From: Tunicatimonas pelagia
Lineage (GTDB): Bacteria; Bacteroidota; Bacteroidia; Cytophagales; Cyclobacteriaceae
Reading direction: 5' to 3'
Length of the DNA: 64,000 nt
NCBI RefSeq assembly: GCF_030506325.1
Contig: NZ_CP120683.1
Coordinates: 6,452,501-6,516,500, forward strand
The notes under the pieces are model-generated. The model was not told the DNA's origin. It searched no databases and saw nothing but the letters and a program-made list of their open reading frames with translations. This document shows, in pieces, positions 14,109 through 19,286 of the stretch. The translations under genes and the position numbers were made by a program. The first letter of the stretch is position 1, and each line of letters opens with the position of its first letter.

Positions 14109-16988
14109 ATGAAGTACTTCGCCGCTCTTAGCTTTTTATTTTTTGCTTCGGTGGTACAAGCCCAAACCTTTAAGCTGAGTGGAGTAGTAGTCGACAGTAT
14201 CGATCAAAACCCTTTACCGGGAGCAACAATCCTACTATCAGACGTAAGCAATGAGCAAAAAACAAGAGCCGTAATTGCGGACGAATCGGGAAAGTTTTCT
14301 TTTGAGAGTCTCCCGGCAACAGGTTGCCAAATCCGCATCACGTACGTTGGTTACAAACCGTACGAAAAGTGGGTTATGCTGCGTAATGCTGATCGCAATC
14401 TGGGTAAAATTATTCTAGCTCCATCAGTTCAAACACTTAAAGAACTAAAAATTAGTGGGCAAGTACTTCCCACTGTTCAAAACGGAGATACCACGGAGTA
14501 TAACGCCGATGCTTTCAAGGTAACCCCGGATGCAGATGCAGCCGATCTCATCAAAAAAATGCCGGGCGTGGTGGTGCAGAACGGACAGGTGCAAGCCCAG
14601 GGCGAAGATGTGCAACAGGTGCTGGTCGATGGCAAAGAGTTTTTCGGTAATGATCCTACTTTAGCACTACGAACCCTACCCGCCGAAGTCATTGATAAAA
14701 TTCAGGTATACGACCGCCAAAGCGACCAAGCCCAGTTCACGGGTTTTGATGATGGCGAAACCGTTAAAACGATTAATATTATTACGAAGATCAATAAGCG
14801 AAATGGTCAATTTGGTAAAGTGTACGCGGGCTACGGTTACGATGATAAGTACCAACTTGGCGGAAACATTAATATCTTCGATAAAGACCGTCGGGTCTCT
14901 ATGATCGGGCAAGCGAACAACATCAACCAACAGAACTTTGCAAATGAAGATTTACTGGGGGTAGTCAGTAGTACCGGTGGCGGCCGACGGGGTGGTTTCC
15001 GAGGGGGAAGGCCCGGCGGTGGCGCAGGTTCAATAGGCGGTCGGGGCAGACGCAACTCCGGAGGTAGTAATGTAAACGACTTTCTGGTAGGTCAGCAAAG
15101 TGGTATTTCTACTACCAATGCGTATGGTCTAAACTACACTGATTCTTGGGGAGAACGCTGGGAAACTAGCGGTAGCTACTTCTTTAATAGCAGTGCAAAT
15201 GATGCGGTGGAATCGCTGAATCGAACTTTTTTTCTGGAGCAAGATGCTACGCAGGAGTACCAGGAAGAAAACCAGAACTACAGCGATAATTTCAATCACC
15301 GCCTGAATATGCGGATGACCTACCAGATTAATTCTCGCAACTCACTAATTATTCAGCCTCGGGTGAGTTTTCAGCAAAATCAAACTAGTGCGCTCCAAAC
15401 TGGAGTAACCGAGCAGGAAGAAAGACTACTAAACCAAACCAATAACTCTTCTACATCTGATATTGGTGGCTACAACTTTGCCAATAATTTACTGTTTCGT
15501 CACCGCTTTGAGAAACGCGGGCGTACCATCTCCGCCCGATTGAGAACGACTGTGAATCAGCAGGATGGCTTTCAATTGCTTCTAGCTGAGAATCGCTCGT
15601 TTGGTACGAACCAGAGCCTGAACGATACCATCAATCAGGAAACTGACTTTGCGCGAGACGGCTGGAATGTAGGTGGTAACTTGGTTTATACGGAACCTTT
15701 AGGGCCGGGCATGGTGCAAATTACGGCCGAAACCAATCGCCAGACGGAGTTCTCGAATAAAAAGACCTTTGGTTTTAATGAGGCTTTGCAAGAACATATG
15801 TTGCTTGATTCAGCATTGAGCAATGAGTTCGCCAGCATCTATCAAACGCAGTCAGTTGGAACCGGTTACCGTTTTTTTTCGGGTGGCCGGCATTCCGGTG
15901 GCCGGCATTCCGGTAGCCGGCATTCCGGTGCTGGGCAAGCCCGAGGTTTCATGGGAATGATTAGCGTGAAGTACCAATGGGCTAACTTACGAAGCGATCA
16001 GGTATTTCCATCCGAGGGTTTCATTAACCAAGATTTTGCTAACCTGCTCCCATCAGCGATGCTACGGTACAAAATTAGCGATAGCAAGAATCTTCGTCTG
16101 TTTTATCGTACTAGCACCCAAGCCCCTTCGGTTACCCAATTGCAAGATGTGATAGATAATAGCAATCCGCTACAACTCACGGTGGGAAATTCTGCCTTAG
16201 ACCAAGAGTATCGTCATAATCTGTTTTTACGCTATTCGTCGGTTAATGCCGATAAGTCAAACACATTTTTTGCTTTACTAGCGGGATCAATTACTGATAA
16301 CTACGTTGGAAACTCCACGTTCATCGCTAATCAAGATACGCTCATTAACGGAAGTGTTTTACTGGCCGAAGGTGGGCAACTCACCCAAGCTATTAATATT
16401 GGGCAGCAGCGCAGTATTCGCACCTTTGTTACCTACGGACAGCCGATCAACTGGTTAAAAAGCAATCTGAATATTAATCTTTCAGGAAATATTGCTCAAA
16501 CCCCCGGTTTAATCAACGAGCAGCAAAACAAGGCCACCAACAGTACCGCCGGGTTAGGACTCACCCTTAGTAGCAACATTAGCGAAAACGTTGATTTCAC
16601 TATTTCCTCTACCTCAAATTACAATTGGGTAAGTAATTCAATCCGCAGCGAACTCAACGACCAGTTCGTTAATCAGAGTACGAACGGAGAACTAACCTGG
16701 ATTTTTGGAAAAGGGCTAGTTTTCCGAACCCAACTGAATCATCAGTTATTTTCGGGACTTACCGAAGGATTCGATCAGAATTTTGTGCTATGGAATATGA
16801 GCGTTGGGAAGAAGTTTCTGAAAGACCGAAGGGGCGAATTACAACTATCCGTCTTTGACCTACTGAAGCAAAACCAAAGTGTGCAGCGCAACATTACTGA
16901 GTCGTATATTGAGGATGTTCAAACGCAAGTGCTCCAGCAGTACTTTATGCTTACCTTCACCTATCAGGTACGGAATTTCAAGTTGTGA
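14109..16988 (+). CDS. TonB-dependent receptor-like outer-membrane beta-barrel protein
   Basis: A 959-residue outer-membrane protein. A signal peptide (to about 18, ending VVQA) is followed by a carboxypeptidase-regulatory-like beta-sandwich (about 20-105), a plug-like domain with the motif DVQQVLVDGKEFFGNDP (about 130-230), and a long barrel of the outer-membrane beta-barrel 3 type. A Gly/Arg-rich loop lies near 293-320 (GGGRRGGFRGGRPGGG). A short GGRHS/GSRHS repeat near 592-606 is encoded by a 15-bp tandem repeat. No SusD partner is adjacent, so this is not a SusC-type import pair. The substrate is unknown. A weak -7-like box lies about 60 bp upstream. Confidence 0.9.
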   Translation: MKYFAALSFLFFASVVQAQTFKLSGVVVDSIDQNPLPGATILLSDVSNEQKTRAVIADESGKFSFESLPATGCQIRITYVGYKPYEKWVMLRNADRNLGKIILAPSVQTLKELKISGQVLPTVQNGDTTEYNADAFKVTPDADAADLIKKMPGVVVQNGQVQAQGEDVQQVLVDGKEFFGNDPTLALRTLPAEVIDKIQVYDRQSDQAQFTGFDDGETVKTINIITKINKRNGQFGKVYAGYGYDDKYQLGGNINIFDKDRRVSMIGQANNINQQNFANEDLLGVVSSTGGGRRGGFRGGRPGGGAGSIGGRGRRNSGGSNVNDFLVGQQSGISTTNAYGLNYTDSWGERWETSGSYFFNSSANDAVESLNRTFFLEQDATQEYQEENQNYSDNFNHRLNMRMTYQINSRNSLIIQPRVSFQQNQTSALQTGVTEQEERLLNQTNNSSTSDIGGYNFANNLLFRHRFEKRGRTISARLRTTVNQQDGFQLLLAENRSFGTNQSLNDTINQETDFARDGWNVGGNLVYTEPLGPGMVQITAETNRQTEFSNKKTFGFNEALQEHMLLDSALSNEFASIYQTQSVGTGYRFFSGGRHSGGRHSGSRHSGAGQARGFMGMISVKYQWANLRSDQVFPSEGFINQDFANLLPSAMLRYKISDSKNLRLFYRTSTQAPSVTQLQDVIDNSNPLQLTVGNSALDQEYRHNLFLRYSSVNADKSNTFFALLAGSITDNYVGNSTFIANQDTLINGSVLLAEGGQLTQAINIGQQRSIRTFVTYGQPINWLKSNLNINLSGNIAQTPGLINEQQNKATNSTAGLGLTLSSNISENVDFTISSTSNYNWVSNSIRSELNDQFVNQSTNGELTWIFGKGLVFRTQLNHQLFSGLTEGFDQNFVLWNMSVGKKFLKDRRGELQLSVFDLLKQNQSVQRNITESYIEDVQTQVLQQYFMLTFTYQVRNFKL
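15882..15926 (+). repeat. 15-bp in-frame tandem repeat (three units)
   Basis: Three consecutive copies of GGTGGCCGGCATTCC, the third with one change, encoding G-G-R-H-S, G-G-R-H-S and G-S-R-H-S. A T8 run lies just upstream. The same 15-bp unit, with one to several changes, is tandemly repeated on the minus strand at 43677-43721 inside an unrelated gene. Confidence 0.9.
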
Positions 16989-16998
16989 GGATTTGGAT

Positions 16999-17655
16999 TT
17001 AAGTACTCCTGATTTTATCAATAAACTCACCAAACCTCGGACACTTTTGAGCTATTCTGCTAACACCAATTTTTTGGGCAATCACCACACCGTCGGTGGT
17101 TTTACCGTATTCAGGGAATAATGTTTCCATTCTATGGGAAGGAGATGTCTGCACTGAATCGTTAATCTCTTTAGGATTATCATTGAACTTCGCCAAGATG
17201 GCATCTAATTCCTTTTTTGAAGCTTTCTTCTGATAATGCTGGGTTACTTTCGTAGAATCAGAAAATAAGAAAGCTTCAAACTCATGCATTTAGAGAAACA
17301 CTGAAAACTTAGGGTTACTGATTTTCTCTTCAATTCTCTGAGCAACGAATTCTGCCTTTTCATTTGAACTGTTTACTCCACTATATTTCTTTAGGAAGGA
17401 AGAGTGAAGCCCGTAGAAATCGTAGACAAAGAAAACTTTTTCGCAATGAGAAGTTTGGCGCAGAAAGCGATGTATATTTTGAATACAATGATCGTAGGTG
17501 ATTGCACCACCCTTGTTTTTGCGTGAGGTCTGATTCTTTTTATTAGGCATCACAGTTACTTCAAGAATATGAGTAGCCTGAAAGTGTTCTCCGACTATCG
17601 TTTTATAAAATATCTCTTCCGACTGTCCTTCAACAATGAGAAAAATATGCTTCAT
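16999..17655 (-). pseudogene. DUF4276 family gene interrupted by a nonsense codon
   Basis: Two abutting pieces in one frame (17655 down to 17290 and 17289 down to 16999) together make a typical full-length DUF4276 protein of 218 codons. The N-terminal half has FLIVEGQSEEIFY, KGGAITYD and VYDFYGL. The C-terminal half has HEFEAFLFSD, EINDSVQTSPSHR, FPEYGKTTDG and CPRFGEFI. Both sets fit the family order. A single TAA (17292-17290) sits where the family usually has a glutamine just before the HEFEA motif; CAA to TAA is one change. An ATG follows the stop directly. DUF4276 genes commonly pair with an AAA ATPase gene just upstream; here only scraps of one remain (next entry). Proposed defence role of such pairs is inference. 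Confidence 0.85.
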
Positions 17656-17660
17656 ACTAT

Positions 17661-17850
17661 CTAATGTCGTCCTCCAAAGAAGTTATTTTCCCACAATTCA
17701 CCTAGGGTATAATCGCCTAACCATTCTTTCAATTCTTTACTATCTTTCCTTGAGCAGTGGGACTTTCAGCTAATTCAAAATCATTAAACTGCGGATAGAC
17801 CAATCTTACCGAATGCTTTTAAAATTCTCTATGTCAATTTTCTTTAGCAT
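17661..17850 (-). pseudogene. Remnant of the AAA ATPase gene partnered with DUF4276
   Basis: In the 290 bp upstream of the DUF4276 start, the two ends of an ATPase remain but not its middle. At 17850-17809, frame one reads MLKKIDIENFKSIR then stops, the classic opening of SMC/AbiE-like AAA_15/AAA_21 ATPases. At 17744-17661 another frame reads DSKELKEWLGDYTLGELW followed by ENNFFGGRH and a stop, which fits my recollection of the C-terminal end of DUF4276-linked ATPases. A third-frame stretch (17809-17744, with LVYPQFNDFELAESPTAQGK) lies between them and joins the tail by a one-base shift. The Walker A, signature and Walker B regions are gone. The stop is five bases before the DUF4276 ATG, the spacing of an old operon. 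Confidence 0.75.
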
Positions 17851-17887
17851 ATATTAGCTGATTAATCAACAGTATTCATACAGACAT

Positions 17888-17912
17888 CAGGCAACGCCAA
17901 CGAATTTGCCTG
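17888..17912. other. Small inverted repeat upstream of the PBP4-type gene
   Basis: CAGGCA and TGCCTG face each other across 13 bases, 33 bp before the start of the carboxypeptidase gene. It could be a leader hairpin, the worn end of a lost element, or chance. No T tract follows on either strand. Confidence 0.3.
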
Positions 17913-17945
17913 GTGTTGTACCAACAAAGTAATTAATTTTCCCGA

Positions 17946-19286
17946 ATGCAGTATTCTTCTTCTATCAATCTTTTAGCTACGGCTACTGTATTACTCATTA
18001 TCTCGTGCACTACCCGTCCTGGAGTTCGCAGCCGGGAATTAAAGGGCTTGGTTGGTGAATCGCCGGTTTTTGAGCGGAGCTTTACAGGGTTTGCGCTGTA
18101 CGATACTGAGCGAGGTGAAATGGTATATGAGTATCAGCCAAACAAATATTTTACCCCAGCTTCTAATACGAAGATTTTCACATTGTATGCTGGATTAAAA
18201 ATGCTCGGAGATTCTATTCCCGCACTGCAATATCAAATTCAAAGCGATACACTTATCTTTACGGGAACGGGTGATCCAACTTTTCTTCATCCGGATATTC
18301 AACGTATTGATACCACCTACGAGAATCAAGTGTACCAGTTTCTCAAAAATAGTGATCGCAAATTGGTATACGTCGAGCGACCCACCACCGATGATTACTT
18401 TGGGCCGGGCTGGGCTTGGGGAGATTACAATTACTACTATTCTTCCGAGAAGTCGGTGTTTCCGATCTACGCCAATGTGGTTCGCTTTCAGTTTAAAGAA
18501 AATATTGCCAAGCCCTTTCCGTATCCGCGCTACTTCAACAGCTTTGTGCAAGGGTTCCCTAATGCCAACCAACCGTCCTACCTACGGCGAGATCGACACC
18601 AGAATGCTTTTTACTACGGAGCCAAACCCGATACTCTGGCGTTTGCCCGGGATGTGCCGTTTATCCAATCGGCTTCGCTGGTACTAGATTTACTGCAAGA
18701 TACGCTGAAACAGCGAGTAAGCAGGCTACCGGATTATCCGGGAGAGTTTACTGACACGCTGTACAGCCTTCCGGCGGATAGCGTTTACCAGCGCATGATG
18801 CAACTGAGCGATAATTTTATTGCCGAACAATTGCTTCTGGTATGTTCCTCAACTCAGCAAGATACACTCAGCTCGGAATGGACGATTGATTACGTAACCG
18901 AAAACTACTTATCAAATTTACCAGACAAACCCATCTGGGTAGACGGTTCAGGCCTGTCGCGCTACAATCTGCAAACCCCCCGCAGCATTGTTGCCCTGCT
19001 ACAAAAAGTAGATGAAGAGCTAGCTGATGAGCGCATCAAAACGATCTTTCCGGCAGGTGGGGTTTCGGGTACCATTGAGCATTGGTACGGAAATCCGGGT
19101 GGTGCGCCTTACGTGTTTGCCAAAACAGGTACGTTGAGTAATAAGCACGCCCTCAGTGGTTTTCTATTTACCCGATCAGGAAAGAAACTCATCTTCAGCT
19201 TTATGCACAATAATTACATCACTTCATCCTCAGTGCTGAAAGTAGAAATGGAGCAGGTTTTACGAAAACTGTACGAAGAGTACTGA
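17946..19286 (+). CDS. dacB: D-alanyl-D-alanine carboxypeptidase/endopeptidase, PBP4 (peptidase S13) type lipoprotein
   Basis: Trims and opens peptidoglycan cross-links in the periplasm. A lipoprotein signal ends IISC with Cys21. All three penicillin-binding motifs are present: S73-N-T-K76 (in PASNTKIFTL), S288-D-N290 and K393-T-G395. The C-terminal VDGSGLSRYN segment also fits class C PBPs. At 446 residues it is normal for the family. The lipoprotein anchor is a difference from the soluble E. coli protein. It stands alone between the decayed ATPase module and a convergent sulfatase. Confidence 0.92.
   Translation: MQYSSSINLLATATVLLIISCTTRPGVRSRELKGLVGESPVFERSFTGFALYDTERGEMVYEYQPNKYFTPASNTKIFTLYAGLKMLGDSIPALQYQIQSDTLIFTGTGDPTFLHPDIQRIDTTYENQVYQFLKNSDRKLVYVERPTTDDYFGPGWAWGDYNYYYSSEKSVFPIYANVVRFQFKENIAKPFPYPRYFNSFVQGFPNANQPSYLRRDRHQNAFYYGAKPDTLAFARDVPFIQSASLVLDLLQDTLKQRVSRLPDYPGEFTDTLYSLPADSVYQRMMQLSDNFIAEQLLLVCSSTQQDTLSSEWTIDYVTENYLSNLPDKPIWVDGSGLSRYNLQTPRSIVALLQKVDEELADERIKTIFPAGGVSGTIEHWYGNPGGAPYVFAKTGTLSNKHALSGFLFTRSGKKLIFSFMHNNYITSSSVLKVEMEQVLRKLYEEY

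Follow-up and report, generated by a model that had tools for sequence, protein, structure and literature searches.

Remnants of a HEC-01-type ATPase and DUF4276 gene pair in the genome of Tunicatimonas pelagia: a probable dead copy of a candidate defence cassette

The described systems that come closest to the locus considered here join an ATPase to a Toprim nuclease. According to excerpts of the literature on OLD nucleases, classes 1-3 hold both parts in one chain (PMC10568477), and in PARIS the AriA ATPase and the AriB Toprim protein are encoded by two adjacent genes, an arrangement called "class 4" OLD (PMC10568477, PMC12796447). IbfA, or HEC-04, is described in part of another paper as an Hma-embedded candidate that consists of an ATPase plus a Toprim and for which an antiphage effect is reported (PMC12111858). 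Excerpts of two further papers list HEC-01 in a strain (PMC12724379) and describe several HECs, including HEC-06, as active (PMC12988326). HEC-01 itself, a candidate system in the PADLOC library, combines an SMC/OLD-like ATPase (HEC-01A) with a DUF4276 protein (HEC-01B). The literature searched, which lay outside the primary guilt-by-embedding paper, yielded no experimental test of HEC-01, and the term DUF4276 returned no paper.

We analysed a stretch of 64,000 nucleotides of the T. pelagia genome (the window) and conclude that one locus in it is very probably a dead copy of HEC-01, gained between a TonB-type receptor gene and a PBP4-type gene and then decayed until no working product was left, and we suggest that the intact cassette may be a split OLD-like nuclease. 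Both window proteins match the HEC-01 models, and the remnants of the two genes have the right order, strand and spacing, with the ATPase first. Unlike an intact HEC-01, the window copy is dead: its HEC-01A homologue has been mostly deleted and is kept only as remnants, and its HEC-01B carries a stop codon. The locus is thus a member of the family as a pseudogene only, and not a pair with both genes intact. A sequence-only reading of this DNA had proposed the ruin of such a pair and a suspected role of these pairs in phage defence. Both proposals agree with the listing of HEC-01 as a candidate system, with the function being deduced from related families.

The comparison with PARIS shows a similar layout, since HEC-01 likewise has an ATPase and a predicted Toprim-like protein on two adjacent genes. 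However, HEC-01 proteins score far better to their own models (for the N-terminal DUF4276 piece of the window, 1.4e-19 to HEC-01B and 0.0038 to AriB), and neither AriA nor AriB was the best family match, so that the locus does not belong to PARIS. The effector families of the two systems also differ by Pfam name, AriB being DUF4435. The HEC-01 ATPase is related in sequence to OLD nucleases (class 1/2; GajA), and the predicted structure of a DUF4276 protein best matches OLD C-terminal regions, but OLD enzymes of classes 1-3 are single chains and HEC-01 is encoded by two genes. IbfA combines an ATPase with a Toprim, and HEC-01 an ATPase with a putative Toprim protein, although IbfA is one fused protein from a different HEC family.

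The effector half of the locus consists of two open reading frames:

17290..17655, minus strand: N-terminal part of the DUF4276 / HEC-01B pseudogene, 121 aa up to a TAA; Pfam PF14103, E 1.3e-9, profile positions 1-95 of 192; PADLOC HEC-01B, E 1.4e-19
16999..17289, minus strand: C-terminal part of the same pseudogene, 96 aa; Pfam PF14103, E 1.3e-23, profile positions 100-191 of 192; PADLOC HEC-01B, E 1.6e-30

These frames (16999-17655, minus strand) are halves of one PF14103 domain with a single in-frame TAA between them, which bears out the earlier description of a DUF4276 gene split by one stop. A PF14103 search of the whole genome gave two matches: an intact copy at 3.83 Mb and the window copy, reported as a single match that contains "1 TAA". 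In the alignment of DUF4276 proteins the TAA sits just ahead of a conserved HEFE motif. An ATG follows it directly, and both halves are open: over 219 codons there is neither a further stop nor a frameshift. Such a layout could permit the two halves still to be made as separate polypeptides, by restart at this ATG, and the split protein to be partly functional without the ATPase. We consider this very unlikely, since the ATPase partner, which is present in nearly all DUF4276 loci examined (see below), is destroyed here, the break lies just before the HEFE motif, and the window gene retains the fewest conserved columns of the 26 aligned proteins (26 of 38 at the 80% level, with the stop column and one gap counted as misses). 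The share of conserved columns in the other 25 proteins is 0.77-1.00; a second broken copy, from another genus of the same family, likewise has a low count, at 31 of 38, with gaps accounting for four of its misses. The low count of the window protein fits relaxed selection, as it would fit a fast-evolving lineage. A sequencing error could in principle be the source of the stop, but not of the ATPase losses described below.

A close intact version of the window DUF4276 was not found in genome contigs, viral contigs or plasmids, nor in phage records, which were searched with the intact paralogue. The genome contigs gave three loci at 29-31% identity, and the plasmid search gave 12 records, the best at 32.6%. 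On viral contigs, none of six pattern matches was a relative of the window protein, and the same count (0 of 6) was obtained for the protein of L069, one of the DUF4276 loci considered next.

In the loci examined, DUF4276 genes nearly always lie behind an ATPase gene. In 41 of 42 DUF4276 loci a homologous ATPase lies upstream on the same strand (phmmer E <= 1e-3 against the ATPase of the intact paralogue in this genome); these loci (L035-L076) were taken as good DUF4276 matches, which biases them to strong ones, and they include the paralogue itself (L043). The exception, L045, begins at a contig end. The two genes adjoin in every paired locus but L039, where some 270-300 bp separate them. This supports the earlier view of the locus as what is left of an ATPase and DUF4276 pair. 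Of 395 genomes sampled from the phylum, 81 had DUF4276 matches, and by our count by eye 7 of about 146 listed matches, the window copy included, hold in-frame stops; broken copies are therefore not exceptional in the phylum.

Upstream of the DUF4276 pseudogene, three pieces of the partner gene survive:

17809..17850, minus strand: HEC-01A ATPase, N-terminal scrap of 14 codons at model positions 2-15, then a stop; 10.2 bits
17744..17806, minus strand: middle scrap of the ATPase, 21 codons, model positions 205-225, in a different frame; 6.5 bits
17661..17738, minus strand: C-terminal scrap of the ATPase with its own stop codon, model positions 334-357 of 358, in the third frame; 29.0 bits

The scraps are collinear and lie in three different frames. 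The first reads MLKKIDIENFKSIR and then a stop (17806-17850), the middle one RLVYPQFNDFELAESPTAQGK (17744-17806), and the last KELKEWLGDYTLGELWENNFFGGRH (17661-17738), ending in a stop that lies 5 bp ahead of the DUF4276 ATG. They were scored with a profile of 358 positions built from 19 DUF4276-adjacent ATPases (alignment A2), which were picked among those retrieved. The three frames of each piece, whose ends were picked after inspection, were compared with 3000 dinucleotide-preserving shuffles, and for none of the scraps was any shuffle as good as the real sequence (0 of 3000 each; best shuffles of 4.1, 3.2 and 5.1 bits for the N-terminal, middle and C-terminal scraps, respectively). The check proposed in the earlier reading, an alignment of the spacer frames with DUF4276-linked ATPases, has thus given a match for each piece. 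When the spacer was searched undivided, the same profile gave 29.9 bits (C-terminal), 6.4 bits (middle) and 4.3 bits (N-terminal), along with a stray 0.6 bits within the DUF4276 gene.

Within the PADLOC library, the C-terminal scrap matches three HEC-01A ATPase models only, at their C-terminus (e.g., E 4.3e-7, profile positions 338-361 of 363). The sole match of the middle scrap is HEC-01A (E 0.0019 with the stop as X, 0.013 as typed letters). The N-terminal scrap, which is too short for a library search alone and was searched inside a 20-residue composite peptide, had no PADLOC match. The scraps are short (14, 21 and 25 residues), and the 4.3 bits of the N-terminal one in the undivided spacer may be set beside noise of up to 1.6 bits in the corresponding spacers of congeners. 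On these grounds one might argue that they are chance resemblances and that the site never contained more than a solitary broken DUF4276 gene. We regard that as extremely improbable: the C-terminal scrap matches the correct end of HEC-01A at E 4e-7, the three scraps stand in the right order, each above all 3000 shuffles, and they are located where the partner gene is expected.

The remnants also indicate how the ATPase gene was lost. The two gaps that separate the scraps lack about 189 and 108 codons. Among the lost parts are the GxNGxGKSN and IIIDEPELGLHP regions, which vary little among the 19 aligned ATPases. In all, about five sixths of the gene has been deleted. Walker A and B regions are absent from the remnants. 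Since the middle scrap survives in another frame and the Walker A and B regions are gone, the alignment indicates at least two deletions, or a combination of deletions and small indels; a single internal deletion is ruled out by the surviving middle scrap. The sequence-only reading had recognised both ends of the ATPase and the missing core, and here it was right, but it overlooked the middle scrap. Of the internal deletion plus nonsense mutation that it proposed, the nonsense codon is present and the one deletion has become at least two.

The history of the site can be followed from its flanks:

14109..16988, plus strand: left flank, TonB-type receptor gene; same place in all three congeners returned, with tblastn identities of 70-88% next to the PBP4-type gene in L005-L007, loci in which the gene is represented by its 3' part only
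16989..17922, no strand assigned: stretch absent from the congeners; approximate, with a right edge estimated by eye from conserved bases ahead of the PBP4-type gene
17946..19286, plus strand: right flank, PBP4-type gene; 78-84% identity in all three congeners returned

The TonB-type and PBP4-type genes are adjacent in all three congeners (G001-G003, drafts of 80 to 880 contigs), as they are in the window, but the spacer between them is 957 bp in the window versus 56, 54 and 174 bp in L005, L006 and L007. The 56- and 54-bp spacers carry the same conserved bases ahead of the PBP4-type gene. No traces of DUF4276 or the ATPase above noise were detected in the three congener spacers (-0.1 to 1.6 bits; window control 226.9 and 29.9 bits). 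Nor did the C-terminal DUF4276 piece of the window have a match at E <= 0.001 anywhere in these three genomes; it was matched in 9 of the 98 genomes searched, its own included. Since the spacer is short and empty in all three congeners, acquisition of the module in this lineage, with later decay, is the most likely course. On these sequence comparisons the simplest history is that the cassette entered an intergenic site that was empty, at a time after this lineage had separated from the nearest of the congeners returned (84% identity of the PBP4-type protein), and most likely decayed there.

Alternatively, the ancestor of the genus may already have carried the module at this locus, with three clean losses since and the last relic kept in this genome. 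Just three congeners were compared, all of them drafts, which leaves some room for this history, but we consider it unlikely. Against it stand the near-equal lengths of two of the spacers (56 and 54 bp), the conserved bases that these two share ahead of the PBP4-type gene, and the lack of any remnant above noise in the three congeners; a single gain is also more parsimonious than three separate losses, each of them precise. Gain followed by decay also bears on three earlier suggestions. Related strains were suggested as possible carriers of the intact version, and the three congeners returned do not have it, their spacers being short and empty. The scar was called datable, which holds only in a relative sense: under parsimony it is younger than the divergence from the nearest congener returned. 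Finally, a short spacer without an ATPase in relatives, which had been named as a sign against the module, was found in part. Because the congener spacers measure 54-174 bp against 957 bp in the window, they refine the story and do not refute it.

The G+C content is 35-37% in the remnants, close to the 39-40% of the intact pair elsewhere in the genome, and 46% in the flanking genes. The low value is not extreme: among window stretches of 657 bp, 4.4% reach down to the level of the DUF4276 gene. In the interval that separates the ATPase remnant from the divergently oriented PBP4-type gene we also noted an inverted repeat, CAGGCAA-11 bp-TTGCCTG (17888-17912); our guess is that it is possibly an operator or terminator brought by the cassette. 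An origin as a repeat element was rejected since the exact pattern was found once in the genome. Further genomic copies of the 290-bp remnant and upstream stretch were likewise rejected: the next match is of 23 bp (E 0.006) and lies beside an ORF of 305 aa which, judged by eye, seems unrelated.

An intact HEC-01 pair, diverged from the window copy, is present elsewhere in the same genome (3.83 Mb; L001 1-3603, also L003 9370-11150). Its DUF4276 protein has 218 aa, and upstream, with a one-base overlap, is a complete ATPase ORF of 374 codons from the first possible start. In PADLOC this ATPase matches HEC-01A at 3.3e-142 and AriA at 4.8e-28, and the DUF4276 protein matches HEC-01B only. The pair is flanked by a 945-aa UvrA-like ATP-binding ORF and a sugar-dehydrogenase-like gene (both named by eye), and no defence neighbours were evident by eye.

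Several pairs elsewhere are damaged or lie on viral contigs. Another genus of the same family holds a relative of the paralogous pair (L038 1480-3253, minus strand), in which the ATPase is complete and 83% identical and the DUF4276 gene is broken into two pieces, 72 and 78% identical. At L065 (2153-3297, minus strand) the ATPase is in two pieces and the DUF4276 gene is complete. Damage can thus strike either HEC-01 gene. Two plus-strand ORFs near the L038 pair (1-465 and 465-1109) bear an "(F/Y)ELGIA" motif, presumably recalling TIR- or deoxyribosyltransferase-like defence proteins. Two intact-looking HEC-01 pairs are on IMG/VR viral contigs (L077 and L078), which suggests that the cassette may at times travel on phages or prophages; in annotated phage records the DUF4276 of the intact paralogue had no match.

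What the intact cassette might do is suggested by its two proteins. An AlphaFold2 model was made from a six-row alignment (A3) whose first row is the L077 protein of a viral contig, a relative and not the window copy (pLDDT 80.1, pTM 0.78). In a Foldseek search of the PDB with this model, ranks 1-5 were all OLD C-terminal regions from Xanthomonas and Burkholderia (E 3.1e-4 to 2.2e-3, probability 1.00), and the match after these had an E of 0.095. TM-scores to the OLD regions were only 0.40-0.53, with rmsd of 6.6-7.6 A. One of the five entries, 6NK8, is an isolated Toprim domain according to an excerpt of PMC10568477. No AriB-named chain was among the best 50 of 999 Foldseek matches, and by sequence DUF4276 had no match to solved chains at E <= 1. 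For the profile of 19 HEC-01A proteins the best PDB relative was the OLD-family endonuclease 6p74 (1.8e-12), with SMC, ABC-transporter, PtuA, GajA, retron and AriA chains among the lower matches. The kinship to OLD is not exclusive: SMC, Rad50 and ABC-transporter chains make up 60 of the best 80 PDB matches listed for the profile.

Taken together, the OLD-like DUF4276 model and the OLD-related ATPase suggest that intact HEC-01 may be an OLD-like nuclease divided over two genes, ATPase first. By analogy with related families, the ATPase would act as a sensor or clamp, and DUF4276, as a putative Toprim nuclease, would act with it in the manner of an OLD nuclease split over two genes. Nucleic acid would then be cut upon phage infection and the infection aborted. 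The window copy can do none of these steps. A broader proposal, to which we give an even chance, is that DUF4276 represents a Toprim nuclease of OLD type that has so far gone unnamed, and that HEC-01 is an OLD enzyme split independently of PARIS, widespread in Bacteroidota and often lost, with the present locus recording one full cycle of gain and decay in which the ATPase erodes faster than the nuclease.

The locus itself is a real but ordinary defence-gene fossil, best described as a probable gain followed by decay in several steps. Its value is modest: the empty site in the congeners suggests the order of events, with gain preceding loss. Of broader interest is the hint, from a predicted structure, that DUF4276 may be an OLD-type Toprim effector. 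If this is true, HEC-01, a candidate system found in many Bacteroidota, would stand beside PARIS as a split ATPase and nuclease, and its mechanism would become testable by an ordinary plaque assay.
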